Assembly (NCBI GenBank): GCA_013331515.1
Contig: DUGG01000033.1
Location: forward strand, 3,365-19,912
Reading direction: 5' to 3'
Length of the DNA stretch: 16,548 nt
Origin: Candidatus Woesearchaeota archaeon
Lineage (GTDB): Archaea; Nanobdellota; Nanobdellia; Woesearchaeales; UBA10216
Below the pieces are notes generated by a model. It worked only from the letters and a program-made list of their open reading frames with translations. It was not told the DNA's origin and did no database searches. The position numbers were made by a program, and so were the translations under genes. Below, piece after piece: positions 1,958-16,548 of this stretch (positions are counted from its first letter, which is position 1; every line of letters starts with the position of its first letter).

Positions 1958-1979
1958 TGATGGAATGCGGCCGCGAAAA

Positions 1980-2046: not shown

Positions 2047-2059
2047 AGTTTAAATATAA
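2047..2059 (+). promoter_or_regulatory. TATA box for the leader ORF and speD
   Basis: The sequence AGTTTAAATATAA is a strong TATA-box match. Initiation near 2080 would give a leader of about 145 nt before the speD ATG at 2225, unusually long next to the leaderless neighbours. That leader contains the 37-codon ORF at 2110-2223. Confidence 0.55.
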
Positions 2060-2109
2060 GCGTCAACAATATTGAAACATCAAAAAGGTGCGTAGAAAGA
2101 TTGGTGTGC

Positions 2110-2223: not shown

Positions 2224-2224
2224 A

Positions 2225-2659
2225 ATGTTCGGACCACACTTGACATTGGATCTTTACGGATGCGACAAGGGTAAGCTTGATGACTATGAATTTGTGCACA
2301 GCATCCTGGACGAGATGCCGGAAATGCTTGGGATGCACAAATTCTCGGCACCTCAGCTCACGAAGATTCCTGCCCAGCAGGAATCATTTGACAAGGGGGG
2401 CCTTACTGGTTTTGTCATACTGGTTGAGAGCCACCTTTCCATTCACACCTTCCCGGCTGACGGCTTCACGTCATTTGACATATTCTCGTGCAAGTACTTC
2501 AGCGAGGACAGCGCGGTAAAGTATCTCATGGACAAGCTCGGGGCCCAAAAGGTTGAGGTCAACCGGCTTGAGCGTGGAAGGGAGTTCGTGAAGCACTACC
2601 CGCGCAATGTGCGGAAGGCATCCGTCATTGCCAAGAAAGAACGCGCGATGTACGCCTGA
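2225..2659 (+). CDS. speD: SpeD-family pyruvoyl decarboxylase (AdoMet or arginine decarboxylase)
   Basis: The 144-residue proenzyme belongs to the class 1B S-adenosylmethionine decarboxylase family. These proteins cleave themselves to make a pyruvoyl cofactor. The motif ESHLSIHT (residues 68-75) holds the cleavage site between Glu68 and Ser69. His74 and Cys89 (DIFSC) match the processing and proton-donor residues. LDLYGCD (8-14) is the usual N-terminal signature. Directly after the processing motif the protein has FPAD (76-79), where bacterial AdoMet decarboxylases commonly have Trp-Pro-Glu, so its substrate is not certain. Agmatinase follows after 43 bp. If SpeD decarboxylates arginine, the two genes make putrescine; if AdoMet, it supplies the aminopropyl donor for spermidine. 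The family call is firm, the substrate is open. Confidence 0.92.
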   Translation: MFGPHLTLDLYGCDKGKLDDYEFVHSILDEMPEMLGMHKFSAPQLTKIPAQQESFDKGGLTGFVILVESHLSIHTFPADGFTSFDIFSCKYFSEDSAVKYLMDKLGAQKVEVNRLERGREFVKHYPRNVRKASVIAKKERAMYA

Positions 2660-2670
2660 TTCAGGCAAAA

Positions 2671-2680
2671 ATTTTTAATG
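2671..2680 (+). promoter_or_regulatory. TATA-like element upstream of agmatinase
   Basis: ATTTTTAATG is centred about 27 bases before the ATG at 2703, compatible with a leaderless transcript. The T run may also end part of the speD transcripts. Co-transcription with speD across the 43-bp gap is equally possible. Confidence 0.4.
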
Positions 2681-2702
2681 ATGCATCCATCGCTTGCCTG
2701 CC

Positions 2703-3593
2703 ATGGCAGTGAAAAATCCCCATTTTTACTTTCCATTTAATTTTGGTGCCATGCCGCATGAGCTGGCGGGTTATGGCGCCTCAATGGTGGCAATCCTCCC
2801 TGTTCCGTACGATGCGACGACCACTTACCGGCCTGGCGCCAGGAATGGCCCCGCAGCGATAATAGACGCGTCCAGACACCTTGAGTTCTACGACGAGGAA
2901 ACCGGCAGGAACTTTTCCGGCATTGGCATTTGCACCCTTGATGAGCTGGAAGTGGTGGATGACTCTGAGAAAATGGCTGGGAGGGTTTACGATGCGGTCA
3001 AAACCCTGCTCGACGATGGCAAGAAGGTTGTCATGCTCGGCGGGGAGCATTCCATAAGCAGCGGCTCGGTCAGGGCTCATGCTGAGTTGCATCCCGGCCT
3101 GACCGTGCTTCACTTGGATGCGCATGCTGACATGAGGGATGAATTTGGGGGCAACAGATTCAACCATGGCTGCGTGGCAAGGCGTATCTCTGAACTGTGC
3201 CCGGTCGTCTCTGTTGGCGTTAGGAGCATTGCAGAGGAGGAAGCCGGACACATCAAAAGCAGCAACGGCAGGATAAAATTGTTCTCCGCAAGGGAAATCC
3301 ATGATAACCCGGGATGGGTTGATGAAGTGGTGAAATCGCTCGGCAGGAATGTTTACGTGACGATTGACCTTGACGCCTTTGACATATCGGTAATGCCTTC
3401 TGTGGGAACGCCGCAGCCGGGAGGGCTGCACTGGTACCAGGTGCTCTCCCTGATGGAGCGGCTGGCGGCAGAGAAGTGCGTTGTCGGGTTTGACGTCACG
3501 GAGCTTATGCCAATACCTGGCCTGCACGCCCCGGACTTTCTCGCTGCAAAGCTGGTCTACAAGCTCATTGGCTACTTCTTCTCCAGGCAATAG
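2703..3593 (+). CDS. speB: Agmatinase (ureohydrolase family)
   Basis: The 296-residue protein belongs to the arginase/agmatinase family, binuclear manganese hydrolases. Agmatinase converts agmatine to putrescine and urea. The metal-binding motifs are all present: GGEH (His116), DAHAD (Asp139, His141, Asp143), and TIDLDAFD (Asp222, Asp224). NHGC near residues 155-157 and the closing DVTELMP motif also match the family. The frame is open from a TTG at 2694, but the ATG at 2703 fits the TATA spacing and is preferred. The neighbours speD and deoxyhypusine synthase support a polyamine role over arginase or formiminoglutamase. Its last 22 bases overlap the end of the convergent DUF2156 gene. Confidence 0.92.
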   Translation: MAVKNPHFYFPFNFGAMPHELAGYGASMVAILPVPYDATTTYRPGARNGPAAIIDASRHLEFYDEETGRNFSGIGICTLDELEVVDDSEKMAGRVYDAVKTLLDDGKKVVMLGGEHSISSGSVRAHAELHPGLTVLHLDAHADMRDEFGGNRFNHGCVARRISELCPVVSVGVRSIAEEEAGHIKSSNGRIKLFSAREIHDNPGWVDEVVKSLGRNVYVTIDLDAFDISVMPSVGTPQPGGLHWYQVLSLMERLAAEKCVVGFDVTELMPIPGLHAPDFLAAKLVYKLIGYFFSRQ

Positions 3594-4498
3594 CTCACAA
3601 CCAGCCGCGCAGGGTGGTACGAAAGCTTGACCCGCTTTAGGTATTCAACTCCAAAATCGTCCTGCGCGTTCAGGAACTCGCAGCCAAGGCCTGCCCAGAA
3701 TCTTGCAAATTCCCTGAAAATGAACTGTGCTGCGCCCTTGATTGCAGGGTGTGTTTTCTCAACTATGTTGCTTACCACTCCATCTCTGAGGAGCTCCCCA
3801 ATGCTATAGCCGACAACCCTTCCGTCGACCTTAAGCACTATCCCCCTTACGTCAAGCGCTTCTGAGAGCTTCAGCAGCGTTCTGGCAGTCTCTGTCTCAG
3901 ATTCCAGCTCATGGCCGTATGAGCCGTCGTTAACCTCTGTTTTCCCTGAGTTCCACAGCTCGGTGAGCTGAAGGCAGTCGCTCAGGTGGCTTGAGGAATC
4001 AAATTCCTCAATGCGGAGGTTGTAGTTTTTCATGAAGAAACTGGCCTTATTGCGCTTGGAATCAAACTCCTTCCCCTTCAGCACAATCAGGCTGCGGGTT
4101 TCGTAGACATAGTCCTGTGTCCAGTAGCCAAGCGACGCCCCGGTTTTACCGGCAACCTCGTCATATTCAGCTTTCAGGCATTGGGGCAGGTAAATTACGG
4201 CAGGCTTTGCCGTTGCTCCGGCAGATTTGTTCAGCTCATCCACTATCTTGAAGCATTCAACAATGGTTTCAGCAAGCTTCTCCCCGCCGACAGGAGGCCC
4301 CCAGACCACGTAGCGCCCCTTGTCGTAGCCAAACACGCACAGGTTGCCGTTGATAACGGTCCACGTGTGCCTCAAAGGCCCTGCCCATATGCGGCGCATC
4401 GTGAATGTCGTGTCGGCAAGGGGCTCTTTTACCTGCGCAAAGGTCTTGTTGAACAGCTCCTTGTCAGCAAGTGCGATTTCCCTAAGTTCATTCTGCAT
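3572..4498 (-). CDS. DUF2156 / GNAT-like acyl- or aminoacyltransferase-type protein, paralog A
   Basis: The 308-residue protein matches the DUF2156 group (phosphatidylglycerol lysyltransferase C-terminal domain-like), built from two GNAT-like halves. The clearest marks are KRNKASFFMKNY (residues 148-159) and the C-terminal NAQDDFGVEYLKRVKLSYHP (277-296), typical of the second half of this domain. No membrane segments are seen, so it is not a full MprF-type flippase-synthase; it is probably cytoplasmic or peripheral. Known relatives transfer aminoacyl groups from tRNA, but the substrate here is unknown. A TTG at 4510 extends the frame, yet the ATG at 4498 lies about 29 bp from a TATA box and is preferred. 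It is divergent from a second member of the same fold at 4596. Confidence 0.75.
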   Translation of the reverse strand: MQNELREIALADKELFNKTFAQVKEPLADTTFTMRRIWAGPLRHTWTVINGNLCVFGYDKGRYVVWGPPVGGEKLAETIVECFKIVDELNKSAGATAKPAVIYLPQCLKAEYDEVAGKTGASLGYWTQDYVYETRSLIVLKGKEFDSKRNKASFFMKNYNLRIEEFDSSSHLSDCLQLTELWNSGKTEVNDGSYGHELESETETARTLLKLSEALDVRGIVLKVDGRVVGYSIGELLRDGVVSNIVEKTHPAIKGAAQFIFREFARFWAGLGCEFLNAQDDFGVEYLKRVKLSYHPARLVVSYCLEKK

Positions 4499-4522
4499 TG
4501 CCGTTAACAACCATTACCGCTG

Positions 4523-4531
4523 TTTATAATT
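4523..4531 (-). promoter_or_regulatory. TATA box for DUF2156 paralog A
   Basis: On the minus strand this reads ATTATAAAC, centred about 29 bases upstream of the ATG at 4498, so the transcript is probably leaderless. It forms one half of a divergent promoter region with the element at 4555-4566. Confidence 0.6.
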
Positions 4532-4554
4532 TTTTTCAGCAAAAAAAATTGGTA

Positions 4555-4566
4555 AAAATTAAATAC
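4555..4566 (+). promoter_or_regulatory. TATA box for DUF2156 paralog B and SET operon
   Basis: AAAATTAAATAC lies 30-40 bases upstream of the ATG at 4596. Initiation would fall a few bases before that ATG, which favours it over the in-frame TTG at 4572. Confidence 0.5.
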
Positions 4567-4595
4567 CGGCCTTGCAAAAGAAACCAATCACGCAT

Positions 4596-5534
4596 ATGGA
4601 ATTAGTGATGGAACCGGAAAAATCCGGCGGAGAAATAAGAAGGTGCATTAGTGAATTCGGGCATGCTCCGGAGCACAATTACTCCTATTTCCTGACCACC
4701 GCTGAATTTGGCGCAAAGGGCATTTTTCTCAAGTCAAGTGAGGGCTACGGTGTATTTGCGACTTACAGTGAGAAGGCATCTGAGGTCACGATGATATCCG
4801 AGGCGCTCGCCCCCAGGGAAAAGCAGGTGGAAGTGCTGCAGGAGGCGCTGGATACCTGCTTTGGGAAGCTGGACGTGAGGAAATTTGTTGTTGAACAGGA
4901 TGAAGCGCTGAGACTGCAAACACGGAAGGAGTTTGCTGCCAACGGCTACAGGGCGCTGACGCCCAGGTATTCTCTCTACTGGCCGGTGTTTGACATGGGA
5001 AAATGGGACGGCAGCGAAATGGGCGGTGAGCAGTGGAAGAAATTGAGGAACATAAGGAACAGGTTCTACGCAGGCCACAGCGTTGAGGTTGTTGACAGCA
5101 GCGGGCTTGACAAGGAAAGACTGAAAGGCATTGTGAACGATTGGGTCGTGCGCAGAAAGCTGCTTGGGCTCGGCTCTGACAGGAAGGACTCCAACCTTGC
5201 CTACTACGAAAGATACCTTAAGATGATTGACCTGGGCTTTGAGGATTCCAGGTTTGCAAAAACCCTGGTCGTGGATGGCGAACCCTGCACCATAACTGCC
5301 GGCTGGGAAATACCCAACTCAGAGGGCGCGTACTATTCTGCAATCGGCATAAGCAACTACGGCTTTGAAGGCCTTGGCGAGATTGCAAACCTTGACGACC
5401 TTAACCGGCTGAAGGAAAACGGCTACGGCCTTGTTGACTTCGGGGGGAGCCCGATGCCGCTCCTGAAATTCAAACTCAAGTTCAAGCCGCAGTTTGTATA
5501 TGTTACGCACACTTACGCAATTGAAAAACGGTAA
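4596..5534 (+). CDS. DUF2156 / GNAT-like acyl- or aminoacyltransferase-type protein, paralog B
   Basis: The 312-residue protein has the same size and layout as the divergent neighbour. A first half (about 1-130) ends in a strand-rich RYSLYWPVFDM. A second half starts with WKKLRNIRNRFYAGHSVEVVD (about 147-167), which aligns with the KRNKASFFMKNY region of paralog A. The C-terminal DFGGSPMPLLKFKLKFKP (281-298) resembles the end of DUF2156/FemAB-like acyltransferase domains. There are no membrane helices. Overall identity to paralog A looks low, so the duplication is old or the two were acquired separately. It is followed after 15 bp by the SET-domain gene and is very likely co-transcribed with it. 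The substrate is unknown. Confidence 0.65.
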   Translation: MELVMEPEKSGGEIRRCISEFGHAPEHNYSYFLTTAEFGAKGIFLKSSEGYGVFATYSEKASEVTMISEALAPREKQVEVLQEALDTCFGKLDVRKFVVEQDEALRLQTRKEFAANGYRALTPRYSLYWPVFDMGKWDGSEMGGEQWKKLRNIRNRFYAGHSVEVVDSSGLDKERLKGIVNDWVVRRKLLGLGSDRKDSNLAYYERYLKMIDLGFEDSRFAKTLVVDGEPCTITAGWEIPNSEGAYYSAIGISNYGFEGLGEIANLDDLNRLKENGYGLVDFGGSPMPLLKFKLKFKPQFVYVTHTYAIEKR

Positions 5535-5540
5535 AAAAAA

Positions 5541-5547
5541 GGAGGTT
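5541..5547 (+). promoter_or_regulatory. Strong Shine-Dalgarno site of the SET gene
   Basis: GGAGGTT is a near-perfect anti-16S match. It lies 2 bases from the ATG at 5550 and 5 bases from the ATG at 5553, so the second ATG has the better spacing. It shows that genes internal to an operon here use SD-led initiation, in contrast to the leaderless first genes. Confidence 0.7.
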
Positions 5548-5552
5548 CCATG

Positions 5553-6059
5553 ATGTCAGAGCTTGTTGTTGTGCGAGATTCCGGCATTCATGGGAAAGGG
5601 GGTTATGCCGCATCAGACATCCCCTCAGGCACCCGCGTCATAGAATACGTTGGCGAGATTATTTCACGTGAGGAGGGAGACCGCAGGTTCAATGCGCAGC
5701 TTGAACAGGGCAGGATTACCGGCTCAGGCATGGTGTATGTTTTTGAGATGGACGAAACTCATGACCTTGATGGCAACGTTGACAACAACCCCGCCCGTTT
5801 CATCAACCACTCCTGCTCGCCCAACTGCAAGGTTGAGATTACTGAAAGGCACATATGGATTATTGCAGCCAGGGACATAAAGAAAGGCGAAGAGCTGTCA
5901 TTTAACTACGGCTACGATGACCTTCTTAATTACAGGGACCACCCCTGCCGGTGCGGGAGCCCAAGATGCGTCGGGTACATCCTTGATGAGAGCATCTGGC
6001 CAAGGATACAGCAGCTTCCTACCCCTTCACCAGAAATATCTCCACATTCTGCCCCTTAA
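5553..6059 (+). CDS. SET-domain protein lysine methyltransferase with post-SET zinc motif
   Basis: The 168-residue protein is a complete stand-alone SET domain. It has GIHGKGGYA (residues 11-19), EYVGE (31-35), the AdoMet-binding RFINHSCSPNC (82-92), and the catalytic-site strand GEELSFNYGYD (112-122). A post-SET motif CRCGSPRCVG (132-141) follows. Cys88, Cys132, Cys134 and Cys139 would bind the zinc ion. The enzyme would use AdoMet to methylate lysines of a protein substrate. Possible targets are small basic chromatin or ribosomal proteins, which is inference. SET genes are patchy in archaea and often look transferred. It lies 15-18 bp after DUF2156 paralog B, and its last 41 bases overlap the end of ileS on the other strand. 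The proline/serine-rich tail (after residue 155) is the overlapping part. Confidence 0.9.
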   Translation: MSELVVVRDSGIHGKGGYAASDIPSGTRVIEYVGEIISREEGDRRFNAQLEQGRITGSGMVYVFEMDETHDLDGNVDNNPARFINHSCSPNCKVEITERHIWIIAARDIKKGEELSFNYGYDDLLNYRDHPCRCGSPRCVGYILDESIWPRIQQLPTPSPEISPHSAP

Positions 6060-9000
6060 TCCTCGCGACCGTTTCACTGTCAAACTTGCCATGCTCTGGC
6101 CTTGTTTCGGCAATTTCCAACTTGAAAGCCCCAACCTTCAGCTTGACATCGGCAGCGCTTTCGCTCACCGCATTTTTCAGCAGTTGCATCTGTTGGGGAA
6201 TCACGAGTGTGACAGCAATGGGTTGCTCCTTTGTCAATCCCATCTCCTTCCTTGCCTGCTGGACATGCCTCACGAGCTCCCTCGCGTATCCCTCAGCCTC
6301 CAGCTCTGCCGTCATGTCCGTGTCAACATAAACCTCCCCGCAGGTGGACTGCACAACGGCAAAGTTTGGCGGAATCTCAATCTCGGTTATGAGGTGTTCC
6401 CTGGTGATTGAAACCATCTGCCCGTCAATCTCAAGCCGGAAGCTTCCCTCTGCCTCGATGTGGTTCATTATCGCTGAAGTGCCGTGAATGGAAAGGTTGG
6501 CTATGATTTTGGGCGTGATGCTGCCAAAGACCGGGCCAAGCTTGCTGTAGTCAGCCTTGACTTTTTTTTTGGATTCCTTGAACTCGTCTGAAAGTGTCAG
6601 CTCCTTAACGTTGGCCTGGGACTTTATTATTGCCGCAAGCTTTCTGACTGCATTCTTGACCTTCTCGTCCTTTGTTACAATTGAAGCCCGTTTCAGCGGC
6701 CACCTGAGCCCTCGTTGAATCTTGTCCCTTGCCGAGAGGATTGCCTCCACTACGGCCCTGGCATGGGCCATTTCCCCTTCAAGCACTGCGTCAATCGCCT
6801 CTGGCTTTGGCCACTCGGAAAGGTGCACGCTTTCCGCCTTCTCCCTGGCAAGCAGCTGATAAATTTCCTCGCTTATGTAAGGCGCGAACGGCGCAAGCGC
6901 CTTTACTATCCTCAGGATGACATACCTCATGGTGTAATGAAGGGCATCGTCAGGGGACGATGCCCTTTCCCTGATAATCCTGATGTACCACCTTGAGAAG
7001 TCGTCAATGACGAAAGACTTCAGCGCCTGGACGCAGAAATGGTACTCATGCCTGCCAAGGGCTTCTTCAACTTCCACCAGGGCAGAATTCACCCGCGATA
7101 TGACCCACTTGTCCTCTGTTGCGTTCGGGAAGTCCCTGGCTGAAGGCGCCTTTGCCAGGACTTCCGATGCAAAGTAGCAGCTGTTCCACAGCACTATCAG
7201 GAACTGGCTAACGCCCTCGCTTACAAGGGCTGCGCTGAACCTTTTCGGCATCTCCGGGGACGTGGTGCAGAACTGTAGCCGGACAGCGTCAACCCCAACC
7301 TGCCCGAACATTTCCCACGGGTTGAGCACGTTGCCCTTGCTCTTGCTCATCTTCTCGCCACTCTCATCCACGACATGGCCAGCGCAGACAACACTCTTGT
7401 AAGCCAGGTTGTCGAAAAGCAAAGTGCCAAGCACGTGCAGGGTGTAGAACCACCCCCTTGTCTGGTCAATGGCCTCTGCTATGAAACCGTACGGGAAGTG
7501 TTTCTCAAGGAGTTCCCTGCTGCCCTTGGCAAAGGGGTAATGGAACTGCGCAAACGCGGCAGCTCCGGAGTCATACCAGCAGTCAATAACATAAGGCACC
7601 CTTGTCATTTCCCCCTTGCACTTCCCGCACTTGAGCTTCACGTCATCAATGAATGGCCTGTGGAGGTCAAGCTCGCCGTTTGGAATGCTGTCCGCTTTTT
7701 CCTTCAGCTCCTTGACGCTCCCTATTGCAGCTTCGCCCTTGCAGCTGCCGCACCTCCAAATCGGAAGCGGCGTGCCCCAGAACTTGTTCCTGCTTAAGGC
7801 CCAGTCCTTGACATTGGCAAGCCAGTCGCCAAAGCGGCCATGCTTTATGGTATCCGGGTGCCAGTCAATCTTCTCATTAAGCTCAAGAAGCCTGTCCTTG
7901 AACTTCCTCACGGCAATGAACCATGACTTCAGCGCATAATACAGCAACGGCGTGCTGCACCTCCAGCAGAAAGGATATGAGTGGGTGTAATTTGCCTTGC
8001 TGAAAAGCAGGCCGTCCTTCTCAAGCCGCTCGATTATCAGCTGGTCTGCATCCTTGACGGAAAGGCCGGCAAAATCCTCGGCGTCATTTGTGAACGTTCC
8101 ATTCTCAGCGACAGGCTGGACGAAAGCCAGGCCGTGCTGCTTGCAGTTCCCGTAATCCTCCTCGCCGAAAGCCGGGGCCTGGTGCACAATGCCAGTGCCT
8201 TCATCTGTGGTGACGAATGGCGCCGCCGTTACAACCCACGCCGGCTTGTCAAGCTTGCCGACAAAATAGTCAAACAATGGGACATACTCCTTTCCCTCAA
8301 GCCCTTCGCCAGCCATCTCCTCAATAATCACCGGGTTCTTGAAGTGCTTTGCAACCAGGTCCTTTGCCAGGATGAACTGCTTGCCTGGCCATTCAGAATC
8401 TTCCACAACAGCATAGGCAACGTCCGGATGTACAGCGAGCGCAACGTTCCCCGGCGTTGTCCAAGGGGTTGTTGTCCATGCAAGGAAATACCTGCCTGGA
8501 GCATCCTTGAGTTCGAACATCGTCGTTATAGCCGGCTCAGTGACATCATTGTACCCAAGGGCTACCTCATGGCTGCTCAGCGGGGTCTCGCACCTTGGGC
8601 AATAGGGAACAACTTTGAAGTCCTCATACAGCAGCCCTTTCATGTAAAGCTCCTTCAGGCTCCACCAAACGCTCTCAATGTAGCTGTTGTCAAGCGTGAC
8701 GTACGGCTCCTTCAGGTCAATCCAGTAAGCCATCTTGTCAGTTAGCTTATCCCACTCGCCGATGAAATTGAAAACGTCAGCCCTGCACAATGAGTTGAAC
8801 CTGCCAATGCCGAAATTCAAGACGTCCTTCTTCGACTTCAAGCCAAGCTTCTTCTCAACCTGGACCTCAACCGGCAGCCCGTGGCAGTCCCAGCCCGCCT
8901 TCCTCGGGACGGTAAAGCCCTTCATAAGCTTGTACCTGCACACAAGGTCCTTGATGGTCCTCATCTCAACATGATGCAATGCCGGAGGCGCGTTTGCGGT

Positions 9001-9203: not shown

Positions 9204-10352
9204 TTACCGCTGTGCAAATTCCGCCCTGGCCTCCCCGGCAAGCCGCCTTACATCGGCTTCAAACCCTGCCCAGTCGTAAGCCGCAATCCTGTCAACCGGC
9301 TCAGCCATTGCACCCGCTCTTGGCGACAGCACTCCATCAAGCCACCTTACCTTGGCCCGCATCTGCCGCATGACGGGGGCAATTCCTTTGTTGCTTTTGC
9401 GATTGGCACGGCTATCCATGCTTCCTTCATGCATAAAACCAGGGGAGTATGTATTCCGTAAAATCCCAAGGTTCACGAACCTGGAAGGTTTGCCCGGGTT
9501 ATGCTCTTCAAAATGGACAGTTTCAATAGTCCCGCAGTTGACAAAGTCGCACGGTGAGGGAATCAACCATCCCTCAACCCTGCCAAAGTTGGCCACAAAG
9601 CACTTGCTTTTATCATCAGTTTCCTCAGAAAAGCTGCCGGTCATCCTGCCTGTGTTTATGTCAACCCCATCGCAGTAACCCCCCTGGCGCGACGGACCCG
9701 ATAAGCGCTCTAAGTCGTCCGTATGATTCAGGAACTTCTTCACTTCGTTCCCGCTGTATGTTCCTGGCTTGTTGCCAAGGTTTATCCTTACGCTGTTTGA
9801 TGACCAGTCCCCGAAATTGGATGCAAAACCAAGGTTCGCCTGCACGCCGCCTTTGGCATAACTGGCAAAAGAATCAACCATGCCATAGCTTATCAGCACT
9901 CCTCCTTCAGCAAGCACGCCAAGCTCGTGCACTGATGAACCTTTTCTTGCCACCAGCACCTTTCCGGGCGCCAGCTTGTAGCCAAGAAAGGAATACTCCC
10001 TGAAAACACCAGCCAGCGCCCGCAGTTCGGTGGTATTAAGCGCCGCAGAGAGGAAAATTCCCAAAACCGGATTATGCTCAGTTTCCAAAGCCGCGATTGC
10101 CTGCTCAAGACCATCGGGGGCAAGATTGGCAAACGTGCCGGCATGAGGCCTGAGCAGCTTCACCGCCGCATCATAAGACGCATCAATTCCTGTACCCCTG
10201 TCGGCAATCGCCTCCCCGTCAACAACCTGCGACCATAAAGCATAAGCAGACAAAAAAATGTCAACAGACGAAGCATCAACCTTCGGAACACTTCTCACAT
10301 CCCCAGGGTCCATCGGCCCGTAGCGGCTCAAGGCCGTCTTCCCAGGCATCAT
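9204..10352 (-). CDS. Tandem array protein 7 (RYGxM / glycine-repeat solenoid family)
   Basis: This 382-residue protein is the last and longest array member, of no known family. It has RYGPM (residues 10-14), the helical SAYALWSQVV (35-44), GIFLSAALNTTEL (98-110) and LGYKLAPGKVLVARKGS (123-139). Solenoid coils of 18-19 residues run from about 140 to 193, with GGVLISYG and KGGVQANLG as clear units. A second set of NxG coils (about 252-300) has FVANFGRVEG, FVNCGTIETV and FVNLGILRN, separated by variable loops. The C-terminal AAYDWAGFEADV begins near residue 357. The start ATG overlaps the stop of the gene upstream (ATGA). No signal peptide or membrane helix is seen. A right-handed beta-helix like the GXGXG domain of glutamate synthase or FwdC is inferred, not shown. 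Function is unknown. Confidence 0.8.
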   Translation of the reverse strand: MMPGKTALSRYGPMDPGDVRSVPKVDASSVDIFLSAYALWSQVVDGEAIADRGTGIDASYDAAVKLLRPHAGTFANLAPDGLEQAIAALETEHNPVLGIFLSAALNTTELRALAGVFREYSFLGYKLAPGKVLVARKGSSVHELGVLAEGGVLISYGMVDSFASYAKGGVQANLGFASNFGDWSSNSVRINLGNKPGTYSGNEVKKFLNHTDDLERLSGPSRQGGYCDGVDINTGRMTGSFSEETDDKSKCFVANFGRVEGWLIPSPCDFVNCGTIETVHFEEHNPGKPSRFVNLGILRNTYSPGFMHEGSMDSRANRKSNKGIAPVMRQMRAKVRWLDGVLSPRAGAMAEPVDRIAAYDWAGFEADVRRLAGEARAEFAQR

Positions 10353-11362
10353 TCACTCACCACCGCTTCAATCTGCTTTCCAACAGCAAGTACCTGCTTC
10401 TCCATCCCCTTCCAGTCGCGCCCGTTAACAGCATCCAACAAGCCGGCAGGGCTGGCCCTGAACCGCTCAAATACCGGGTAGTTGTCAACAAGCCCTTCAA
10501 GCTTTTCGACAAGGGCAAGAACGCGCTCGCTTGCATGGCCTGTGACTGGAACAGACTCCAGACCTGGAGTCCCTTTGAAAACCGCATCTCCTGAAATCAT
10601 CACACCCCCGGTTGCCGGGGACACATACTGAACTCCGTTGATTGCGTTCGGGTAAAAGCAGACACCTCCAGTCATTCCAATGCCAATATTTGAAGGTTTT
10701 CCTCCTATTTTAACCGCAACACCTCCTCGCATAACTGTCCCCACTGAATTGCCAGTTCCAACGGTAACAAAAACCATGCCATCCGGTTGCATAACCGGCA
10801 TGGTGATGCTCCCGCCAAAGTCAAGGAAGGTTCCTGAACCTGCTGCCAATATAAATACCGCAACCATTTTGTAATTTACGCAAAGCCCGCCTCGTGAATT
10901 TCCAAGTTCAATAGCATCGCCATAGTTGAATATGTTTCCTTCGCTTTCGCTCCTGAAGCCAAGCGCTCCAACTATAGAGCCCGGAAGCATCACCAGATTC
11001 TTGCCTTTTGCAAGCCGATAGCCAATGCCTCCCAAGCCTTTATTGTCTGCCAGAACCTTCAACGGGCTGAGGTTGAAAGCAGCCGTGGCAAAAACCCCGG
11101 CCATGCCATGCTCCGCATTTGCGCCTCCAAACAGCTCGTCAAACATCTCCTGGGTGACGCCCTCCAGCGCTTTCCGGTAAGGCGCCAGCAGTTTAACAGC
11201 TGCCCGATAAGCCGAATCGGCATTTGAAGTGCCAACCTGCTTCCACACCGAATAAACGGCAGAAAGGACGTCAAAAACATTCTCACTCATAATGGGGCGC
11301 CTTTCTTCGCCAACTGGCTCCATGCCGCCATAGCGGTGCAGTGCCGCTTCAACCACGCCCAT
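10349..11362 (-). CDS. Tandem array protein 6 (RYGxM / glycine-repeat solenoid family)
   Basis: The 337-residue paralog carries RYGGM (residues 10-14), YSVWKQV (37-43), GVFATAAFNLSPL (89-101) and GIGYRLAKGKNLVMLPGS (112-129). It has the longest regular run of coils in the array, about 130-260. SRGGLCVNYK, MRGGVAVKIGG, MTGGVCFYPN and ATGGVMISGD appear about every 18-20 residues. The C-terminal helix has GRDWKGMEKQV (314-324). The ORF opens at a GTG at 11365, but the ATG at 11362 is preferred; it overlaps the upstream gene by 14 nt. Its first 9 residues equal those of protein 4 apart from the residue before RYG. Its 3' end is about 91% identical to the fragment at the window's right edge, pointing to recent exchange within the array. 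Function is unknown. Confidence 0.8.
   Translation of the reverse strand: MGVVEAALHRYGGMEPVGEERRPIMSENVFDVLSAVYSVWKQVGTSNADSAYRAAVKLLAPYRKALEGVTQEMFDELFGGANAEHGMAGVFATAAFNLSPLKVLADNKGLGGIGYRLAKGKNLVMLPGSIVGALGFRSESEGNIFNYGDAIELGNSRGGLCVNYKMVAVFILAAGSGTFLDFGGSITMPVMQPDGMVFVTVGTGNSVGTVMRGGVAVKIGGKPSNIGIGMTGGVCFYPNAINGVQYVSPATGGVMISGDAVFKGTPGLESVPVTGHASERVLALVEKLEGLVDNYPVFERFRASPAGLLDAVNGRDWKGMEKQVLAVGKQIEAVVSE
10394..10470. repeat. Array repeat B, copy 1 (C-terminal coding segment)
   Basis: This 77-bp segment matches 16472-16548 with about 7 differences by eye (about 91%). Both copies encode the ERFRASP...NGRDWKG region near the C-terminus of an array protein. The second copy runs into the window edge, so the true repeat may be longer. 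Confidence 0.75.
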
Positions 11363-11467
11363 CACCGTTCATTGTAGCGCGCAGCCGTACCTCCAGCCCC
11401 TTCCAATCGTAAGCATTAACCATCGCAAGTGCTTTCGCTGGCCTGTCACGCATGCCAGCAACAGCTT
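11337..11467. repeat. Array repeat A, copy 1 (spans the protein 5/6 junction)
   Basis: This 131-bp segment matches 13176-13306 with 5 differences by eye (about 96%), a much higher identity than the flanking paralog sequence. It covers the C-terminal MVNAYDWK...NGDGRG coding region of protein 5, the 14-nt overlap, and the first codons of protein 6. Confidence 0.85.
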
Positions 11468-12287
11468 TAAGGGTTCTCACGCCCTCAAGAAGCTTCCGAA
11501 TTTCTCTATCCTTCTGAAGCTTCCAGAAGTAGTTTGCAATCAGTGAACTATCTGGATGAAAGGAAACGTGACCTTCGTCGAACTTAAACACCTGTTTCGT
11601 ATCGTATCCGAAGAATCTTGCTGCGTCATAATTAAGCAATACCACCTCCTCAGTCAAACTGCCAAACGAACCAACAGGAGAGTAGCTTACCAGAAAGCAA
11701 CCTTTTGCCCTGATACCAAAGGCGGTTGAATTATTGCAGTTTATTTTTATTCCACCAGTGGACAAATTCGCAAACCCGCTGGTATCTCCCCAACTTACCT
11801 GAAAACCACTTCGTGAACCATCGGCAAACATCACGGCGTCACCCAGAAGGGCTATGTCACCAGCAGCTTCTTCACCAACGAATACCAGGCGATTTTTATT
11901 GTTCACTATAAGCTGCTTTCCCTCCGCAAGCCGATAGCCAATCCCTTCATGGCCAGTGTCAACAAGCTTGGCAAGCCCGCTCAGGTTAAAAGCAGCAGAT
12001 ATGAAGACGCCCATTTCCCGCAGATATTCACTCTCCTGCGCAGAAGCCAGTTTGCTGGAAAAAATGTCAAACGTTCCCTGAGTAACAGACTCCAAAGAGA
12101 TTCTATGCGGAGCAAGAAGCCTCACAGCTTCCAAGTAATTCAATCCTGGCGCCGTGTAGGGTGGTATAACCTGTTTCAAAAGAGTGTACGCGCTCAATAA
12201 AATGTCAACAGGGGAAGAGCCAACCCTTGGAACATGCATCTCCCCTAACTTGTCCATTTGGCCGTATCGGCTTAAAGTGAGCGTCAT
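11349..12287 (-). CDS. Tandem array protein 5 (RYGxM / glycine-repeat solenoid family)
   Basis: The 312-residue paralog carries RYGQM (residues 7-11), LSAYTLLKQV (31-40), GVFISAAFNLSGL (93-105) and TGHEGIGYRLAEGKQLIV (111-128). Regular coils of about 18 residues span about 133-222: AAGDIALLGD, SRSGFQVSWGD, STGGIKINCN, RAKGCFLVSYS and TEEVVLLNYD end successive turns. The C-terminal NAYDWKGLEVRL starts near 291. It is closest to protein 3: both share DTGHEGIGY, the AAGDxALLGDA coil and an almost identical C-terminus. The start ATG overlaps the upstream stop (ATGA). Its last 14 bases overlap protein 6. No signal peptide or membrane segment is present. Function is unknown. Confidence 0.8.
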   Translation of the reverse strand: MTLTLSRYGQMDKLGEMHVPRVGSSPVDILLSAYTLLKQVIPPYTAPGLNYLEAVRLLAPHRISLESVTQGTFDIFSSKLASAQESEYLREMGVFISAAFNLSGLAKLVDTGHEGIGYRLAEGKQLIVNNKNRLVFVGEEAAGDIALLGDAVMFADGSRSGFQVSWGDTSGFANLSTGGIKINCNNSTAFGIRAKGCFLVSYSPVGSFGSLTEEVVLLNYDAARFFGYDTKQVFKFDEGHVSFHPDSSLIANYFWKLQKDREIRKLLEGVRTLKAVAGMRDRPAKALAMVNAYDWKGLEVRLRATMNGDGRG

Positions 12288-13201
12288 TTTCCCTTATACC
12301 CCGCAACCGCGTCATCCATCTCCTTCAGGATGCCCCGCAACTGCACATCAATGCCTCGCCAGTAAGCGGGAGGATGCACCGACAAGTCAACACCATCTGA
12401 AGCAGGAAGCCATGAAAGCTGACGGGCAATCTCTAAAGCCTGCCTGGACAGGCTGCTGAACGGCTCGATTTCATTAAAGGATGCCCTGCCAAACAGTTCA
12501 CTGTAATGGAAAGCAATATCAGGCGCTTCATCAAGGTTCATAATCAACTCAAGGCCGCTCATTCGGAGTCTTCTGATACCAGCATTCAGAGAATGACCCG
12601 TCCTAAAAGTTATAGACGTGGTGTTTTCCGAACCCAGGCAAAAAAGAGTCACCCGCCCGCAGTTTATCTGAGTGCCTCCCAGTGCGTTCTCTGCCATCAT
12701 ATATGTGTCTGAATAGTTTAAGATGATTCCATGTGAATACAGCCCCGAACAGACGACGTCTGAGCCAGACTGGACTTCGAGAAGCTTTCCTTCCTCCAGT
12801 CGATACCCAAGATATTCTATCTTATCAAAAATCCCTGCCATGGCTTCCAAACCAGTGTGGTTAAGGACTGCTGAAAGAAAAAGTCCAGATAAAGAATACG
12901 GCTTCCATTGCAACTGGGATGACGTCCGGATAAGCGGAAGAATTGCACGCCTGCTTATCCCATCAAATTCCTCTGCGCTCATCCCTGAAAATAAACAGGC
13001 ATAAGGGGAAACCAGTTTCACAGCTTCCTGGTAAGCAGTCTCAATGCTATCGTAGCTGATACCATTGGGAAAAAAACCACGCCACACTGCAAATGCGCTG
13101 GCAAGCACGTCAGCAAGATTCTCCTTCACTACAGGAACCCTCTTCTCCTCGCCCGGCCCCAGGCTGCCATACCTTTGCAGTGCCGCTTCAACCACGCCCA
13201 T
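12284..13201 (-). CDS. Tandem array protein 4 (RYGxM / glycine-repeat solenoid family, divergent)
   Basis: The 305-residue protein is one of the more divergent members. The N-terminal motif is RYGSL (residues 10-14). SAFAVWRGF (35-43) replaces SAYxxWxQV, and GLFLSAVLNHTGL (106-118) and LGYRLEEGKLLEVQSGS (131-147) follow. Coils are fewer and less regular (about 148-222), with SHGIILNYSD and ALGGTQINCG the clearest. In the C-terminal motif YDW is replaced by AYWRGIDVQL (279-288). The ORF opens at a GTG at 13204, but the ATG at 13201 is preferred; it overlaps protein 3 by 14 nt. Its start region is nearly identical to that of protein 6 because of repeat A. Function is unknown. Confidence 0.78.
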   Translation of the reverse strand: MGVVEAALQRYGSLGPGEEKRVPVVKENLADVLASAFAVWRGFFPNGISYDSIETAYQEAVKLVSPYACLFSGMSAEEFDGISRRAILPLIRTSSQLQWKPYSLSGLFLSAVLNHTGLEAMAGIFDKIEYLGYRLEEGKLLEVQSGSDVVCSGLYSHGIILNYSDTYMMAENALGGTQINCGRVTLFCLGSENTTSITFRTGHSLNAGIRRLRMSGLELIMNLDEAPDIAFHYSELFGRASFNEIEPFSSLSRQALEIARQLSWLPASDGVDLSVHPPAYWRGIDVQLRGILKEMDDAVAGYKGK

Positions 13202-13306
13202 CACCGTTCATTGTAGCGCGCAGCCGTACCTCCAGCCTCTTCCAATCGTAAGCATTAACCATCGCAAGCGCTTCCTCCGGCCTGTCACGCATGCCAGCAA
13301 CAGCTT
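13176..13306. repeat. Array repeat A, copy 2 (spans the protein 3/4 junction)
   Basis: This segment pairs with 11337-11467 at an offset of 1839 bp, which is about two array genes. It covers the C-terminal coding end of protein 3, the 14-nt overlap and the start of protein 4. Confidence 0.85.
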
Positions 13307-14243
13307 CAAAGCCCTGGACGTCGGAAAGAAGACTACTGACAGCCCGGTACTTTGGCAGCAATTTTGACACAAAATCGCGGAATGCCTCCACAGCTGGCAT
13401 ACCATTCCCAAAAGTCGTAATATTATCCCAAAATGTTGTAAAAGGACGCCAATGTCTTTTAACTTTGCCAAGGTTGACAAAATTTTCATAACCGTTCATT
13501 CCTTTCGGTGAAGGAGATTCCACTGTTCCTATGATTCCATTGCTTATGAGAACAGAACTGTATGGAAGAGTTAACCGCCAAACAGTATCGATACGGCCAA
13601 GGTTTATAGTTGTTACTCTATTGAAATTCAAATCGATTGATTCAGCTTCTCCGACATTCATGAATATGCAATTAGCTGCCCTTATTCTCATTGTCCAGCC
13701 GAAGTTTGCTTTGATCCCTCCCTGGGATCCTTCACCAAAGAATAATGTTTTGCCCCAACTGATTTGCACGCCCCCAAAAGAGTATTCAGCAAACCTTTCA
13801 GCATCTCCCAGAAGGGCCATGTCGCCAGCAGCATAATCTCCAACACGTTTCAACCTCACCTTGTTGTCCACTACCAGGGTCTTCCCTTGCGAAAGCCCGT
13901 AGCCAATCCCTTCATGGCCTGTATCAGTCAACACAGCCAGCCCGCTCAAGTTGAAAGCAGCGGTAACGAAAACGCCATCCGGCTGCTCGCTACCCGGCGT
14001 GGCCATCACGCTATACAACGCATCAAAATCTCTCTTAGTCGCTCCAGCCAGTTCCCAGGCATAAGGCCCCAGCAGCCGCAACGCTTCCCGATAGCCCAAT
14101 TCCAGCTCATCGGCTTGAGCCACCTGCTTCCAAGCCTCATACGCGCTCACAACAGTCTCGGCAAGGTCAACGCGCACTTCAGGAGCGCGCCTTTCACCAG
14201 CGGGAGGCATTTCGCCATACCTGCCTGTTAGCGCTTGCATCAT
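13188..14243 (-). CDS. Tandem array protein 3 (RYGxM / glycine-repeat solenoid family)
   Basis: The 351-residue paralog carries RYGEM (residues 8-12), SAYEAWKQV (33-41), GVFVTAAFNLSGL (90-102) and TGHEGIGYGLSQGKTLVV (108-125). Solenoid turns of about 18 residues run from about 130 to 260. The first ones are of the GG type (YSFGGVQISWG, SQGGIKANFG). The later ones are of an NxG type (FMNVGEAESIDL, TINLGRIDTVW, LISNGIIGTV, FVNLGKVK). Protein 7 has the same switch from GG to NxG turns. The C-terminus has NAYDWKRLEVRL (330-341). The start ATG overlaps the stop of protein 2 (ATGA), with a GGTGAAGGA purine stretch just upstream. Function is unknown. Confidence 0.8.
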   Translation of the reverse strand: MMQALTGRYGEMPPAGERRAPEVRVDLAETVVSAYEAWKQVAQADELELGYREALRLLGPYAWELAGATKRDFDALYSVMATPGSEQPDGVFVTAAFNLSGLAVLTDTGHEGIGYGLSQGKTLVVDNKVRLKRVGDYAAGDMALLGDAERFAEYSFGGVQISWGKTLFFGEGSQGGIKANFGWTMRIRAANCIFMNVGEAESIDLNFNRVTTINLGRIDTVWRLTLPYSSVLISNGIIGTVESPSPKGMNGYENFVNLGKVKRHWRPFTTFWDNITTFGNGMPAVEAFRDFVSKLLPKYRAVSSLLSDVQGFEAVAGMRDRPEEALAMVNAYDWKRLEVRLRATMNGDGRG

Positions 14244-15331
14244 TCCTTCACCGCCTCTTCAATCATGGCGCGAAGATGCAGCACGCTGGATTTGAAGCCG
14301 GTCCAGTTGTAACTGGTCATGCGCTTTACCATTTCCTCGGTGTTAGCGTCGTCCCTGCAGGCGTTTGTTGCTTTACCGACTTTTGCTTTAAGGCTGGACA
14401 GCAGCCTCGGCACTTCAGCTCCGTCAAGAACTTCGCAGGCATAACTTGGGTAGTCCAGTCTCACTGCAACGCGACCTTCGAGAGTCAGATAAGAAAGATG
14501 GACATTCAATAACTTATATCGCCTCTCAGATGAATATTGCCTGCCGAAATCAACGGCAAAGCTTTCCTGGCCGTTTCGCGAACCAAATCCTTCAGGCGTT
14601 CTCCCCGAATTAATGCCCGTGCATCCTTCTGGAAGATAGAACATGGGGTGCAAGAATGCGCCAGTTTGTCCCTTGATATTTCCGGAATTTGAATTGATAA
14701 GCACATTTCCAGTGAGACATCCAATTCCAAGTTCTACAGTCGTCCCGTCATTGAACAACAAGCAGTCTCTTGAGCCAGGTCCCGCAATATGTGTCGCGTC
14801 TCCCTTGTTTATCATGAATCCGCCTTTAGCCCCCTCACCCAAACTGGCCACCCTTCCCAAGTTATACACCTCTCCTTCAGCTTCTTCTCCAAACGCGAGA
14901 ATATTAGAGCCTGGCAGGGCGACAAGCTTCTTGCCCCTTGGAAGGCGGTAGCCAACCGACCACCAGCCGGAAAACACGCCAGCAAACAGCTCAATGCCAC
15001 TCAGGTTAAGCGCGGCAGCTAAAAAACCGGCCGCTGCTGAATCAGTGAGATACAATGAGTCAACTTCAGGATTATCAGAAATTCGGTTCGTAACCTGCTT
15101 CAGCATATTAGGATTCTCCATGCTTTCCAGCAGCCCCTTGTGCGGCCGCAAAACCTCCACAGCCAAGTCATAAGACCTTCCGACTCCTGACATTGAATCC
15201 CCAACGACCTGCCTCCAGACCTGATAAGCTGAAAGAAGGGTCGTCACAACATCCTCAGCCACATCAGGGCGCTTTACCGTACCAGCCAGCTTCATCTCGC
15301 CATACCTGCTGTTAAGCCTAGCCAAGACCAT
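14240..15331 (-). CDS. Tandem array protein 2 (RYGxM / glycine-repeat solenoid family)
   Basis: The 363-residue paralog carries RYGEM (residues 9-13), LSAYQVWRQVV (33-43), AGFLAAALNLSGI (101-113) and VGYRLPRGKKLVALPGS (126-142). Turns of 18-20 residues run over about 143-230: EAEGEVYNLG, GAKGGFMINKGD, SRDCLLFNDG and LTGNVLINSNSG. The region after the coils is longer than in most members. The C-terminal motif is SYNWTGFKSSV (340-350). The frame is open to 15349, but the ATG at 15331 has an AGGAGGTG site 4 bases upstream (15336-15343) and is preferred. That start lies inside the 30-codon mini-ORF, with a 14-nt overlap. Function is unknown. Confidence 0.8.
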   Translation of the reverse strand: MVLARLNSRYGEMKLAGTVKRPDVAEDVVTTLLSAYQVWRQVVGDSMSGVGRSYDLAVEVLRPHKGLLESMENPNMLKQVTNRISDNPEVDSLYLTDSAAAGFLAAALNLSGIELFAGVFSGWWSVGYRLPRGKKLVALPGSNILAFGEEAEGEVYNLGRVASLGEGAKGGFMINKGDATHIAGPGSRDCLLFNDGTTVELGIGCLTGNVLINSNSGNIKGQTGAFLHPMFYLPEGCTGINSGRTPEGFGSRNGQESFAVDFGRQYSSERRYKLLNVHLSYLTLEGRVAVRLDYPSYACEVLDGAEVPRLLSSLKAKVGKATNACRDDANTEEMVKRMTSYNWTGFKSSVLHLRAMIEEAVKE

Positions 15332-15410
15332 GGCGCACCTCCTTCGCATCAGGACATTTCACTTTATCAGTCAGTCCAATTTCTCCGTAAAAATTCAGCG
15401 CATGCACCAT
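15318..15410 (-). CDS. Mini-ORF carrying only the array N-terminal motif (30 aa)
   Basis: An ATG at 15408-15410, 9 nt after the stop of protein 1, opens a 30-codon frame ending in TAG at 15318-15320. A GAGGA site sits a few bases upstream. Residues 5-23 (LNFYGEIGLTDKVKCPDAK) align with the start of protein 2 (RLNSRYGEMKLAGTVKRPDV), so it is clearly a family N-terminus. It then ends with RHGLG and overlaps protein 2 by 14 nt, exactly like the proteins 3/4 and 5/6 junctions. The simplest reading is a paralog that lost its middle by an in-frame deletion, keeping the first 25 and last few codons. Whether the peptide is made or is a remnant kept for translational coupling is unknown. Confidence 0.6.
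   Translation of the reverse strand: MVHALNFYGEIGLTDKVKCPDAKEVRHGLG
15336..15343 (-). promoter_or_regulatory. Shine-Dalgarno site of array protein 2
   Basis: On the minus strand this reads AGGAGGTG, 4 bases before the ATG at 15331. It is a strong ribosome binding site and decides the start of protein 2 over the longer open frame to 15349. Confidence 0.7.
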
Positions 15411-15419
15411 TGTCCTCGC

Positions 15420-16433
15420 TCATTTCAGCAGATATCCTTTTAGTTGCGCTGCCAATCCTTCAATGTCCTTCTGGTAGGAACTCCAGTCGTAGGCAAACAC
15501 TCTCTCAAGCCCTCCCGGCAGGGTAAGGTTTTCCATAAAGCTAATCCCGTGGGCGCGCGCCTCCATCTCCTTGGCAGTTTCAGTGGCTTCCCGGGAGAGT
15601 GGCCTCATTCTCTCTTCTTTAATTTGTCTGCTATGGCCCCTTGATGTTCTTACTATGATGTGCGCTTTTGAATAATCCGCCCCTTCGCCAATCAGCCGCC
15701 GGTCAATACGATTTTTTGCTAAGTCAGCAAAACAAAACCCGCTGGTAAATGGAAAAAGGTCTTTGTTCTTTCCTGAAAGGTCAATCTCCACCCCTCCCTC
15801 TGCTGACGCGCCAAATATCTGGCAATTGCCTTGCGCGACCTGAACGCCGCCTTTTGCACGCATGGCAAAATCGCCGTACCTGCCTGCAAAGCATACCTGG
15901 ACTCCTCCCAAAGCATCCCGGGCAAAATCGCCGACATCAGAATAGCTTACAATCACGCCATTGCACCTTTCACCAAGTGAATCAAACCTGGAACCCGCAT
16001 ACGCCACGATAATCTTTCCATTTGCCAGGTTGGTCCCAAACTCAGGCATCCTGAACACCCCGGCCAGGAATGGCAGCCAGGTCCCATTCAGCAAGGCAGT
16101 CAGGAACATCCCATCTCGCGGGTCGTTGCCGAATGCATTTGCAATTTCTTCAACAACCCTCGCATCAGCATCTGCAAAGTCATCGGCAAACGGCCTCACA
16201 ATCTTGGCAGCCGCCGTTCTGTAAAGCAAATCAGCATCGTAATTAGTCCTAATCGGCATCCCAATAGCATTCATCAACCTTTGAGTTGCATCATTGGCAT
16301 TTAACTCCTCAGCCAGTAAGCTCCATTCATGATGCATCGCTTTTACAGTCTGCACAAGGTCTGGTTTCACCCTAGGAACTTGCCTTACATCCGGAGGCTC
16401 CATGTCGCCGTAGCGGCCAAGTGGAATGTTCAT
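15420..16433 (-). CDS. Tandem array protein 1 (RYGxM / glycine-repeat solenoid family)
   Basis: The 337-residue paralog carries RYGDM (residues 7-11) and a helical stretch with MHHEWSLLAEEL (33-44) in the place of SAYxxWxQV. An insert of about 20 residues (47-66) follows. GMFLTALLNGTWL (108-120) and FGTNLANGKIIVAYAGS (132-148) match the core. Three textbook coils follow (about 158-221): DFARDALGGVQVCFAG, DFAMRAKGGVQVAQG and IFGASAEGGVEIDLSG. They define the family repeat best. The part after the coils is charged and helical, and AYDWSSYQKDI begins near 314. The start ATG overlaps the stop of the upstream partial paralog (ATGA), with a GAGG site about 7 bases before it. Function is unknown. 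Confidence 0.8.
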   Translation of the reverse strand: MNIPLGRYGDMEPPDVRQVPRVKPDLVQTVKAMHHEWSLLAEELNANDATQRLMNAIGMPIRTNYDADLLYRTAAAKIVRPFADDFADADARVVEEIANAFGNDPRDGMFLTALLNGTWLPFLAGVFRMPEFGTNLANGKIIVAYAGSRFDSLGERCNGVIVSYSDVGDFARDALGGVQVCFAGRYGDFAMRAKGGVQVAQGNCQIFGASAEGGVEIDLSGKNKDLFPFTSGFCFADLAKNRIDRRLIGEGADYSKAHIIVRTSRGHSRQIKEERMRPLSREATETAKEMEARAHGISFMENLTLPGGLERVFAYDWSSYQKDIEGLAAQLKGYLLK

Positions 16434-16548
16434 CTCACTGCCTCGTGTATCTGCCTTCCTGTTTCAAATATCTGCTTCTCAAGCCCCTTCCAGTCGCGCC
16501 CGTTAACATAATCCGTCAAGCCGACAGGGCTGGCCCTGAACCGCTCAA
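16430..16548 (-). CDS. Tandem array protein 0, C-terminal fragment at window edge
   Basis: The frame ending in TGA at 16430-16432 is open to the window edge and gives the last 38 residues of another array member. It starts ERFRASPVGLTDYVNGRDWKG and ends in HEAVR. It is closest to the C-terminus of protein 6, both in protein and in DNA (repeat B). The stop overlaps the start codon of protein 1 as ATGA. The array and its promoter therefore extend beyond the right edge of the window. Confidence 0.85.
   Translation of the reverse strand, partial: ERFRASPVGLTDYVNGRDWKGLEKQIFETGRQIHEAVR
16472..16548. repeat. Array repeat B, copy 2 (window edge)
   Basis: This segment pairs with 10394-10470 at an offset of 6078 bp, about 91% identical by eye. 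The match runs to the last base of the window, so its far end is not known. Confidence 0.75.

Follow-up and report, generated by a model that had tools for sequence, protein, structure and literature searches.

MoxR-type AAA+ ATPases are found paired with proteins carrying a von Willebrand factor A (vWA) domain, for example as NorQ/NorD, CbbQ/CbbO and RavA/ViaA, where the client contributes an acidic residue to the metal ion-dependent adhesion site (MIDAS) (PMC9976466). Kaur et al. (2020; PMC7159879) described four ternary conflict systems built on MoxR and vWA (VMAP, iSTAND, FtsH and beta-propeller), proposed that a peptide is captured by the vWA protein and the complex remodelled by MoxR, and found metallopeptidases to be rare among the effector domains. 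In multicellular bacteria, targets of diversity-generating retroelements (DGRs) that occur with MoxR and vWA were put forward as putative antigen sensors (Dore et al., 2024; PMC10907252). Here we describe a row of paralogous genes on the minus strand of a 16,548-nucleotide stretch of a Candidatus Woesearchaeota genome (positions 9204-16548 of that stretch, which we call the window). We propose that this array may encode interchangeable recognition proteins (“readers”) serving one machine, made up of a MoxR ATPase and a vWA protein with an HExxH motif, and judging from the sequences we hold this proposal to be evenly poised between right and wrong.

As in the systems of Kaur et al., MoxR and a MIDAS-bearing vWA protein are combined with a variable third component, and peptidase domains and DGRs are present in some of those systems. 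Unlike in those systems, the third component here is a tandem array of readers that bear a short N-terminal tag, the vWA protein has an N-terminal HExxH, and the setting is not bacterial, the hosts being Woesearchaeota-type archaea. VMAP, iSTAND, FtsH and beta-propeller components were not detected by Pfam in the scanned proteins of the row (10 of the 14 array members plus the MoxR-vWA pair; the rest of the incomplete genome was not searched), and PADLOC gave no match among six row proteins. The system would work like a MoxR-vWA sensor system, but its third component does not match that of the VMAP ternary systems. With the case of Dore et al. it shares DGR targets adjoining MoxR and vWA, as well as the sensor proposal; unlike in that case, the DGR loci here are archaeal (four, in three genomes) and other loci hold solenoid arrays instead of DGR targets. 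These four loci would conflict with a statement of Dore et al. on DGR clade 5F, provided that their reverse transcriptases fall into this clade and that MoxR-vWA is counted among the domains concerned. NorQD, CbbQO, CoxDE and RavA/ViaA differ from it in that here no enzyme client adjoins the pair, several paralogous partners are present, and the vWA protein carries HExxH. The glycine-rich coils of the readers resemble the GXGXG beta-helix of FwdC in register; unlike FwdC, the window proteins have a coil period of 18 where it is significant (19 in M09), an extra tag and additional parts at both termini, and no enzyme complex. In the open-licence literature, no paper was found to mention Woesearchaeota together with MoxR, and the system itself was not met in that literature, which omits most subscription papers.

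The window corresponds to bases 3365-19912 of a 31,610-base contig (C65) from a draft genome that is 67.86% complete; coordinates prefixed C65 follow contig numbering and all others window numbering. Its minus strand holds seven complete open reading frames (ORFs) and the 3' end of an eighth, head to tail, as a sequence-only reading of this DNA had described. These are members M07 (cut) to M14 of a larger, 14-gene head-to-tail array (C65:12568-28597) that extends past the window edge. The number 14 counts recognisable members, 11 of them without gaps, and N runs at C65:19913, 24612, 25114 and 25672 break members 7, 3 and 2. All genes of the row point in the same direction, in the order MoxR, M01, HExxH-vWA, M02-M14, with the MoxR and vWA genes outside the window (Table 1); the row proposed earlier as a single co-directional, overlapping unit is thus joined by this pair. 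No metalloenzyme was found in the row, which consists of the array and the pair and stops inside the window at ileS, whose identity was confirmed by Pfam. With ATG starts, the gene overlaps are 4, 14, 4, 14 and 4 nucleotides (nt), the lengths noted earlier, and the sole gap in the window row is the 88-nt M09/M08 intergenic stretch, with a mini-ORF that had also been noted and that nothing marks as a gene. We moved the start of M09 from 15349 to 15331, the more likely position, where AAGGAGG lies just 5' of the ATG.

The paralogy claimed in the sequence-only reading was upheld: all 21 pairs among the seven complete members are related (phmmer, worst E 1.1e-7), and shuffled copies never scored E 0.01 or better in 49 comparisons. 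Its claim of a shared motif order stood in part. The blocks RYGxM, GxFxxAAxNxSG and GYRLxxGKxLV are present, and the C-terminal YDW is indeed weakened, to AYW, in the fourth member (M11), but the blocks do not hold in all members (M08 has GTNLANGK). A known family for the array was rejected, in agreement with the earlier view, with no match above cut-off in Pfam (0 of the 10 members scanned, out of 14), PADLOC (0/4) or NCBIfam (0/3). Membrane segments are likewise absent from the seven window members (highest 19-residue Kyte-Doolittle mean 1.61), and no obvious signal sequence was seen in the array members, which start with the tag, although no signal-peptide program was applied. None of the 11 gap-free members has a broken frame. 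A database protein (P0004) is nearly identical to M05 (C65:21726-22670); the few residue differences lie mostly in the coils and represent strain variation.

For the MoxR gene, the Pfam assignment is accompanied by a PDB match (2r44, E 1.1e-4) and a Walker A motif, GEPGFGKT, in the translation. Pfam VWA_2 matched the window locus's own vWA protein below cut-off (E 0.033), and Pfam gave nothing above cut-off for the pair beyond AAA/vWA. In an alignment of 20 of the 27 vWA proteins from the loci described below, every sequence (20/20) keeps HExxH as well as the MIDAS residues (D, S, S, T and a further D downstream), and VWA_2 was matched at E <=0.01 in six.

The sequence-only reading had suggested checking the size, neighbours and spread of the array; besides the 14 members and the MoxR and HExxH-vWA neighbours, this gave a narrow distribution, the array family occurring in 1 of the 59 genomes of a near-relative search (its own) and in 5 of 371 phylum genomes, strongly only in G000, G109 and G301. 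A large protein search with a word-sharing prefilter returned at least four array-family relatives in one run and at least six in another, and at least one vWA protein, 100% identical; the latter two runs scored no more than 8000 candidates each. The vWA alignment had matches in 44 of the 371 genomes, many of them weak and confined to the vWA domain, and strong matches (E 1e-50) at 24 loci in 22 genomes, including the locus itself; four of these 24 had contributed to the profile. A scan of named archaeal records with vWA yielded eight loci, seven from Woesearchaeota or Nanoarchaeota and one from an “archaeon”; five were already in the set and three (L096-L098) were added. A viral home was not supported: in one scan of viral contigs with the vWA alignment A5, no relative was confirmed among 42 pattern matches; the array family was not scanned there.

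The resulting 27 loci were picked by their vWA protein, not by arrays, and their neighbourhoods were read as far as the contigs or fetched stretches reach. At 15 of the 27 loci (14/26 without the window's own), at least two tandem paralogs are encoded on the strand of the vWA gene no more than 6 kb away, compared with 1 of 40 control anchors, which lie further away from the vWA gene. The largest paralog cluster near vWA ranges from none to eight at the other loci and reaches 14 in the window genome. The vWA gene and a MoxR ORF belong to one run at 25 of the 27 loci; the exceptions are L072, with no MoxR in view, and L078, where the contig stops before one could appear. Comparing profiles of 16 partner sets separated clade I (the window, L073 and L076; window vs L073, E 8e-21), clade II (L077, L079, L080, L083 and L098), clade III (L085, L086 and L087) and sets with other bodies (L070, L074/L075, L072 and L071). 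Contact between clades I and II is weak (L073 vs L079, E 1.4e-4), and judged by profile comparison the paralog sets are several unrelated families.

Of the 371 genomes, 20 contain clade II readers, and a vWA match accompanies them in 12; below 1e-20 there are 10 such genomes, seven with a vWA match. After removal of the five genomes that seeded the profile, vWA matches accompany clade II in 7/15 genomes vs 39/366 (p 3.1e-4) or, counting strong vWA matches only, 4/15 vs 17/366 (p 3.2e-3). Dropping the seed genomes did not alter our estimate for the proposal, because the locus count (15/27 vs 1/40) carries the main weight. Genome G109 encodes 22 solenoid-reader ORFs on nine contigs (counted from 31 matches); five of the 22 adjoin MoxR-vWA. 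It also has an interrupted copy and three matches to the tag alone. The same counting gave 12 in G301 (14 matches). These dispersed readers speak for a diffusible adaptor over a fixed complex, and locus membership alone does not define the family. The earlier suggestion that the products cooperate is accordingly divided: the idea of variants with different binding surfaces gained support, but subunits of one assembly became less likely because related readers are scattered over many contigs in these two other genomes.

Some loci differ in what surrounds the pair. L038 and L069 have other, partly shared genes around MoxR-vWA, including two proteins at L038 that look by eye to be of L,D-transpeptidase type, which suggests a second use of the pair. 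At L071, a row of short proteins with DLARQFxR-like starts (3803-7896) lies beside MoxR-vWA in a genome that looks GC-rich; the row lacks a tag match and may be an independent reader family.

The N-terminal tag is what the readers would have in common. In all eight sets compared (L077, L079, L085 and L086 were left out), the first 22 residues, counted from three residues before RYG in the window set and from GLD[DA]LI in L098, are better conserved than the remainder: window, 0.44 vs 0.28 (11 of the 12 A2 proteins); L098, 0.66 vs 0.32 (7/8 proteins); L074/L075, 0.89 vs 0.61 (4/5); L070, 0.86 vs 0.59 (2); L080, 0.69 vs 0.33 (4); L083, 0.50 vs 0.33 (2/3); L087, 0.43 vs 0.28 (6/9); and L073, 0.42 vs 0.32 (4/5). 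In G109, LDxYxGxGKPDEKKxI precedes two unrelated bodies, the solenoid readers and a family of ~220 residues; in an alignment of seven copies of the latter, hypervariable segments alternate with fixed stretches in the last part. The profile match between the two bodies is restricted to the tag (residues 2-31, E 1.5e-6), and the three tag-only genomic hits cover tag columns alone. We trained a tag matrix on 28 tags from G109 and G301, none from the window, and scored it against 172 control ORFs; it recognised the C65 array proteins (n=12, area under the curve [AUC] 0.74, p 3e-3) and clade II (n=25, AUC 0.78, p 3.5e-6), with p values that overstate independence, the members of a family being related. 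As a negative control, residues 101-180 of 53 other readers gave none above the control 95% point. From these comparisons, the tag is firm within clade I, likely to be shared with clade II and, for clade III and the DGR set, no more than a suggestion. Most tags contain an acidic residue (E/D; T in that place in window member M09), which is a candidate contact to the vWA MIDAS because clients bind such sites through an acidic residue (PMC9976466).

The central parts of the readers are rich in glycine, and we examined 12 array members for a coil period with 300 shuffles per protein. A period of 18 was found in M10 and M12, with no shuffle reaching the observed value; shuffles reached it in 6/300 cases for M14, 5/300 for M09 (period 19), 21/300 for M06, 19/300 for M08, 49/300 for M05 and 12/300 for M03 (best period 12). 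Readers of the sister locus L073 have a period of 18 in L073|8 (0/300), L073|5 (1/300) and L073|7 (14/300), and L073|4 is best at 24 (0/300); elsewhere the period is 19 in L079 and L083 (0/300 each), 24 in L085 (0/300) and 23 in L086 (17/300). FwdC was the best PDB match of the window-family profile (9sfi_R, E 0.012, not significant alone), and the clade II reader L079 matched FwdC at E 2.7e-10. Pfam GXGXG matched M13 weakly, below cut-off (E 0.044), and 1 of 16 clade II proteins (E 9.4e-5). We infer that clades I and II are GXGXG-like beta-solenoids, with clade III on less ground; the coils of all three clades are probably beta-solenoids.

Variety among the readers appears to arise by two routes, one of which, mosaic exchange of segments, is seen inside the array. 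A block of 1,963 bases comprising M11, M12 and the start of M13 duplicates M04, M05 and the start of M06 at 75% identity. The N-terminal parts of M01 and M10 are 87% identical (dS 0.21) and their coils 41% (dS saturated), and M04 and M11 are 89% identical over the last 70 residues (dS 0.13) and 60-64% elsewhere; M05 and M12 have no such contrast between caps and coils (63-65% throughout). In the M01/M10 and M04/M11 pairs, as read from these identities, the caps are shared or converted and the coils diverge. The two closest array pairs have dN/dS values of 0.37-0.78; therefore, the array genes are kept.

At sister loci, variation takes another form. DGR variable repeats lie in partner genes at 4 of the 27 loci, in three genomes (L070; L074 and L075; L078), and the mismatches to the second copy fall at adenines of that copy in 11/11 and 6/6 cases at L070, 10/10 and 6/7 at L074, 11/11, 9/10 and 8/8 at L075, and 18/21 at L078, where the repeat is in an ORF upstream of the vWA gene that is cut by the contig end. 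Each of the four has an RVT_1 reverse transcriptase, and MoxR is in view at three. At the same setting, no DGR repeats were detected at the other 23 loci. DGR diversification of the window array itself was rejected, with no adenine-specific repeats in C65:12001-31610. A PDB sequence search gave no support for a C-type-lectin fold in the F72 and L070 proteins, a label suggested by the look of such variable regions.

DGRs also occur away from the pair. The window genome has an unlinked one on another contig (C88, 505-2693; L090), with 13/13 adenine mismatches, a reverse-transcriptase sequence in two frames and a 266-residue target without a visible tag; this contig is too short to show neighbours. 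Two further DGRs, at G301:C25 (L173; 14/14 adenine mismatches) and G137:C7 (L174; 21/21), are in genomes that also have MoxR-vWA readers. The reverse transcriptase at G109:C2 (L172) was rejected as DGR evidence, being retrotransposon-like by eye and without an F72 template; its contig is probably contamination, also by eye.

We can now set out how interchangeable readers might serve one MoxR and HExxH-vWA machine. Each would consist of an N-terminal tag, a helical domain, a beta-solenoid and a C-terminal helix, with the solenoid face binding a ligand that may differ from member to member. The tag would be captured by the vWA MIDAS, and ATP-driven remodelling by MoxR would either hand the bound target to the HExxH domain or switch that domain on. 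The repertoire would arise by tandem duplication and segment exchange in the window genome, and by hypermutation in sister loci. Docking of the tag on vWA, a solenoid binding face and MoxR-powered delivery to, or activation of, HExxH together form the best-supported mechanism, whose chances we put at about even. The natural use is probably the detection of foreign or unwanted proteins within the cell, an intracellular role being favoured because no membrane segment and no obvious signal sequence were seen. More tentatively, and with the doubts outweighing the support, DPANN archaea may possess a repertoire recognition system in which an AAA+/vWA/zinc-peptidase-like machine takes any protein with the short N-terminal tag, drawing on a library made by duplication and solenoid-segment exchange (14 members here, 22 elsewhere) or by targeted hypermutation of lectin-like-looking domains.

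Several observations weigh against the reader proposal, among them the relatedness behind the tag p values. Within the genus, neither the array nor the vWA protein was found in the other seven genomes. By the 6-kb test, 12 of the 27 vWA loci lack tandem paralogs, and at L036, L037, L038, L069, L088 and L096, some on short contigs, no reader-like neighbour was seen. Clade II occurs without a vWA match in 8 of its 20 genomes, and in 3 of the 10 with strong matches (<1e-20); with the five seed genomes included, co-occurrence gave an inflated p of 1.1e-7. In G109 and G301, the majority of readers lie away from MoxR-vWA. The tag matrix is weak for clade III (n=14, AUC 0.68, p 0.012) and the DGR set (n=8, AUC 0.71, p 0.024) and gave no signal for family F71 (n=6, AUC 0.33). 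The coil period was not significant in M01, M04, M11 and M13 in the 300-shuffle test, and no excess of amino-acid changes, as coil-specific positive selection would leave, was found in the coils. No peptidase family was among the Pfam or PDB sequence matches of the HExxH region.

The array proteins could instead be clients, with MoxR-vWA acting as an assembly chaperone, as in NorQD, CbbQO and RavA-ViaA, that folds or matures a complex of them. Where the function of a MoxR-vWA pair is known, it acts on a client as a chaperone or activase (PMC9976466, PMC7159879), and the translational overlap of the genes fits co-assembly. However, in sister loci this place is taken by unrelated third proteins, among them DGR targets, which are made for variation; the 22 reader ORFs of G109 are spread over nine contigs; and the number of paralogs near vWA swings between none and 14. 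We regard a client role as unlikely on this evidence.

Another reading turns the proteins outward: in an episymbiotic archaeon they would form a variable set for adhesion or host recognition, and MoxR-vWA would be engaged in their export or assembly. Against it, the seven window members lack membrane segments and begin with the tag in place of an obvious signal sequence, and known MoxR-vWA pairs act in the cytoplasm. A role in symbiosis was proposed for DGR proteins of nano-sized archaea (PMC5006420), and Dore et al. suggested host interaction for DGRs of CPR and DPANN (PMC10907252), which lends this possibility some substance, yet we consider it slightly harder to maintain than a client role and improbable. 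That the array is a genetic by-product, a tandem duplication grown by unequal crossing-over with no coordinated role, would fit its presence in one of eight genus genomes searched and the repetition of M04-M06 in M11-M13, but it is very improbable given dN/dS below 1 where measurable, the intact frames of the gap-free members and the tandem sets adjoining the same pair at 14 other loci.

Table 1. Features of the gene row. Positions prefixed C65 are in contig numbering, others in window numbering; helices were judged by eye.
Feature	Position	Strand or direction	Description
M14	9204..10352	-	382 aa; last gene of row; worst E against the other six 8.3e-18
M14 layout	9204..10352	-	tag at ~residues 8-27, helical domain, glycine coils, C-terminal YDW helix
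M13	10349..11362	-	337 aa from ATG; alternative GTG at 11365; coil period not significant
M12	11349..12287	-	312 aa; coil period 18 residues (0/300 shuffles)
M12 coil region	11538..11894	-	~residues 132-250; putative GXGXG-like beta-solenoid
M11	12284..13201	-	305 aa from ATG; alternative GTG at 13204; AYW for YDW; coil period not significant
M10	13188..14243	-	351 aa; coil period 18 residues (0/300 shuffles)
M09	14240..15331	-	363 aa; start corrected by ribosome-binding site; best coil period 19 (5/300)
M08-M09 gap	15332..15419	-	88 nt; mini-ORF
M08	15420..16433	-	337 aa
M07 3' end	16430..16548	-	cut at window edge; runs on as C65:19794-20669 across N gap
HExxH-vWA protein	C65:25690-27585	same direction, between M01 and M02	631 residues; HEFGH and vWA-type LLDTSGSM
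MoxR-type AAA+ ATPase	C65:28694-30202	same direction, upstream of array	AAA_lid_2 and AAA_5 above Pfam cut-off

The remainder of the window encodes other functions. On the plus strand, genes for deoxyhypusine synthase, S-adenosylmethionine decarboxylase and an arginase-family protein follow one another (998-3593; Pfam), forming a polyamine and hypusine set, and a SET-domain protein of 169 aa (5550-6059; Pfam SET, E 8.8e-25) lies in an archaeal gene neighbourhood. Between them, two divergent genes on both strands (3572-5534) encode proteins of 312 and 320 aa with matches to LPG_synthase_C, at E 3.3e-27 (above cut-off) for the first and E 0.0015 (below it) for the second.

If DPANN archaea do possess a repertoire system of this kind, they would watch over the cell interior with a library of receptors whose binding folds can be swapped. 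MoxR-vWA pairs with variable partners have so far been putative conflict systems, mainly of multicellular bacteria, and a related logic would now be found in small-genomed archaea. The archaeal case brings an unnamed third component, one tag that appears on two unrelated bodies, and two apparent ways of generating variety. It becomes testable what purpose some DPANN retroelement targets serve, and whether archaea keep recognition libraries wired to one motor and a protease-like partner.

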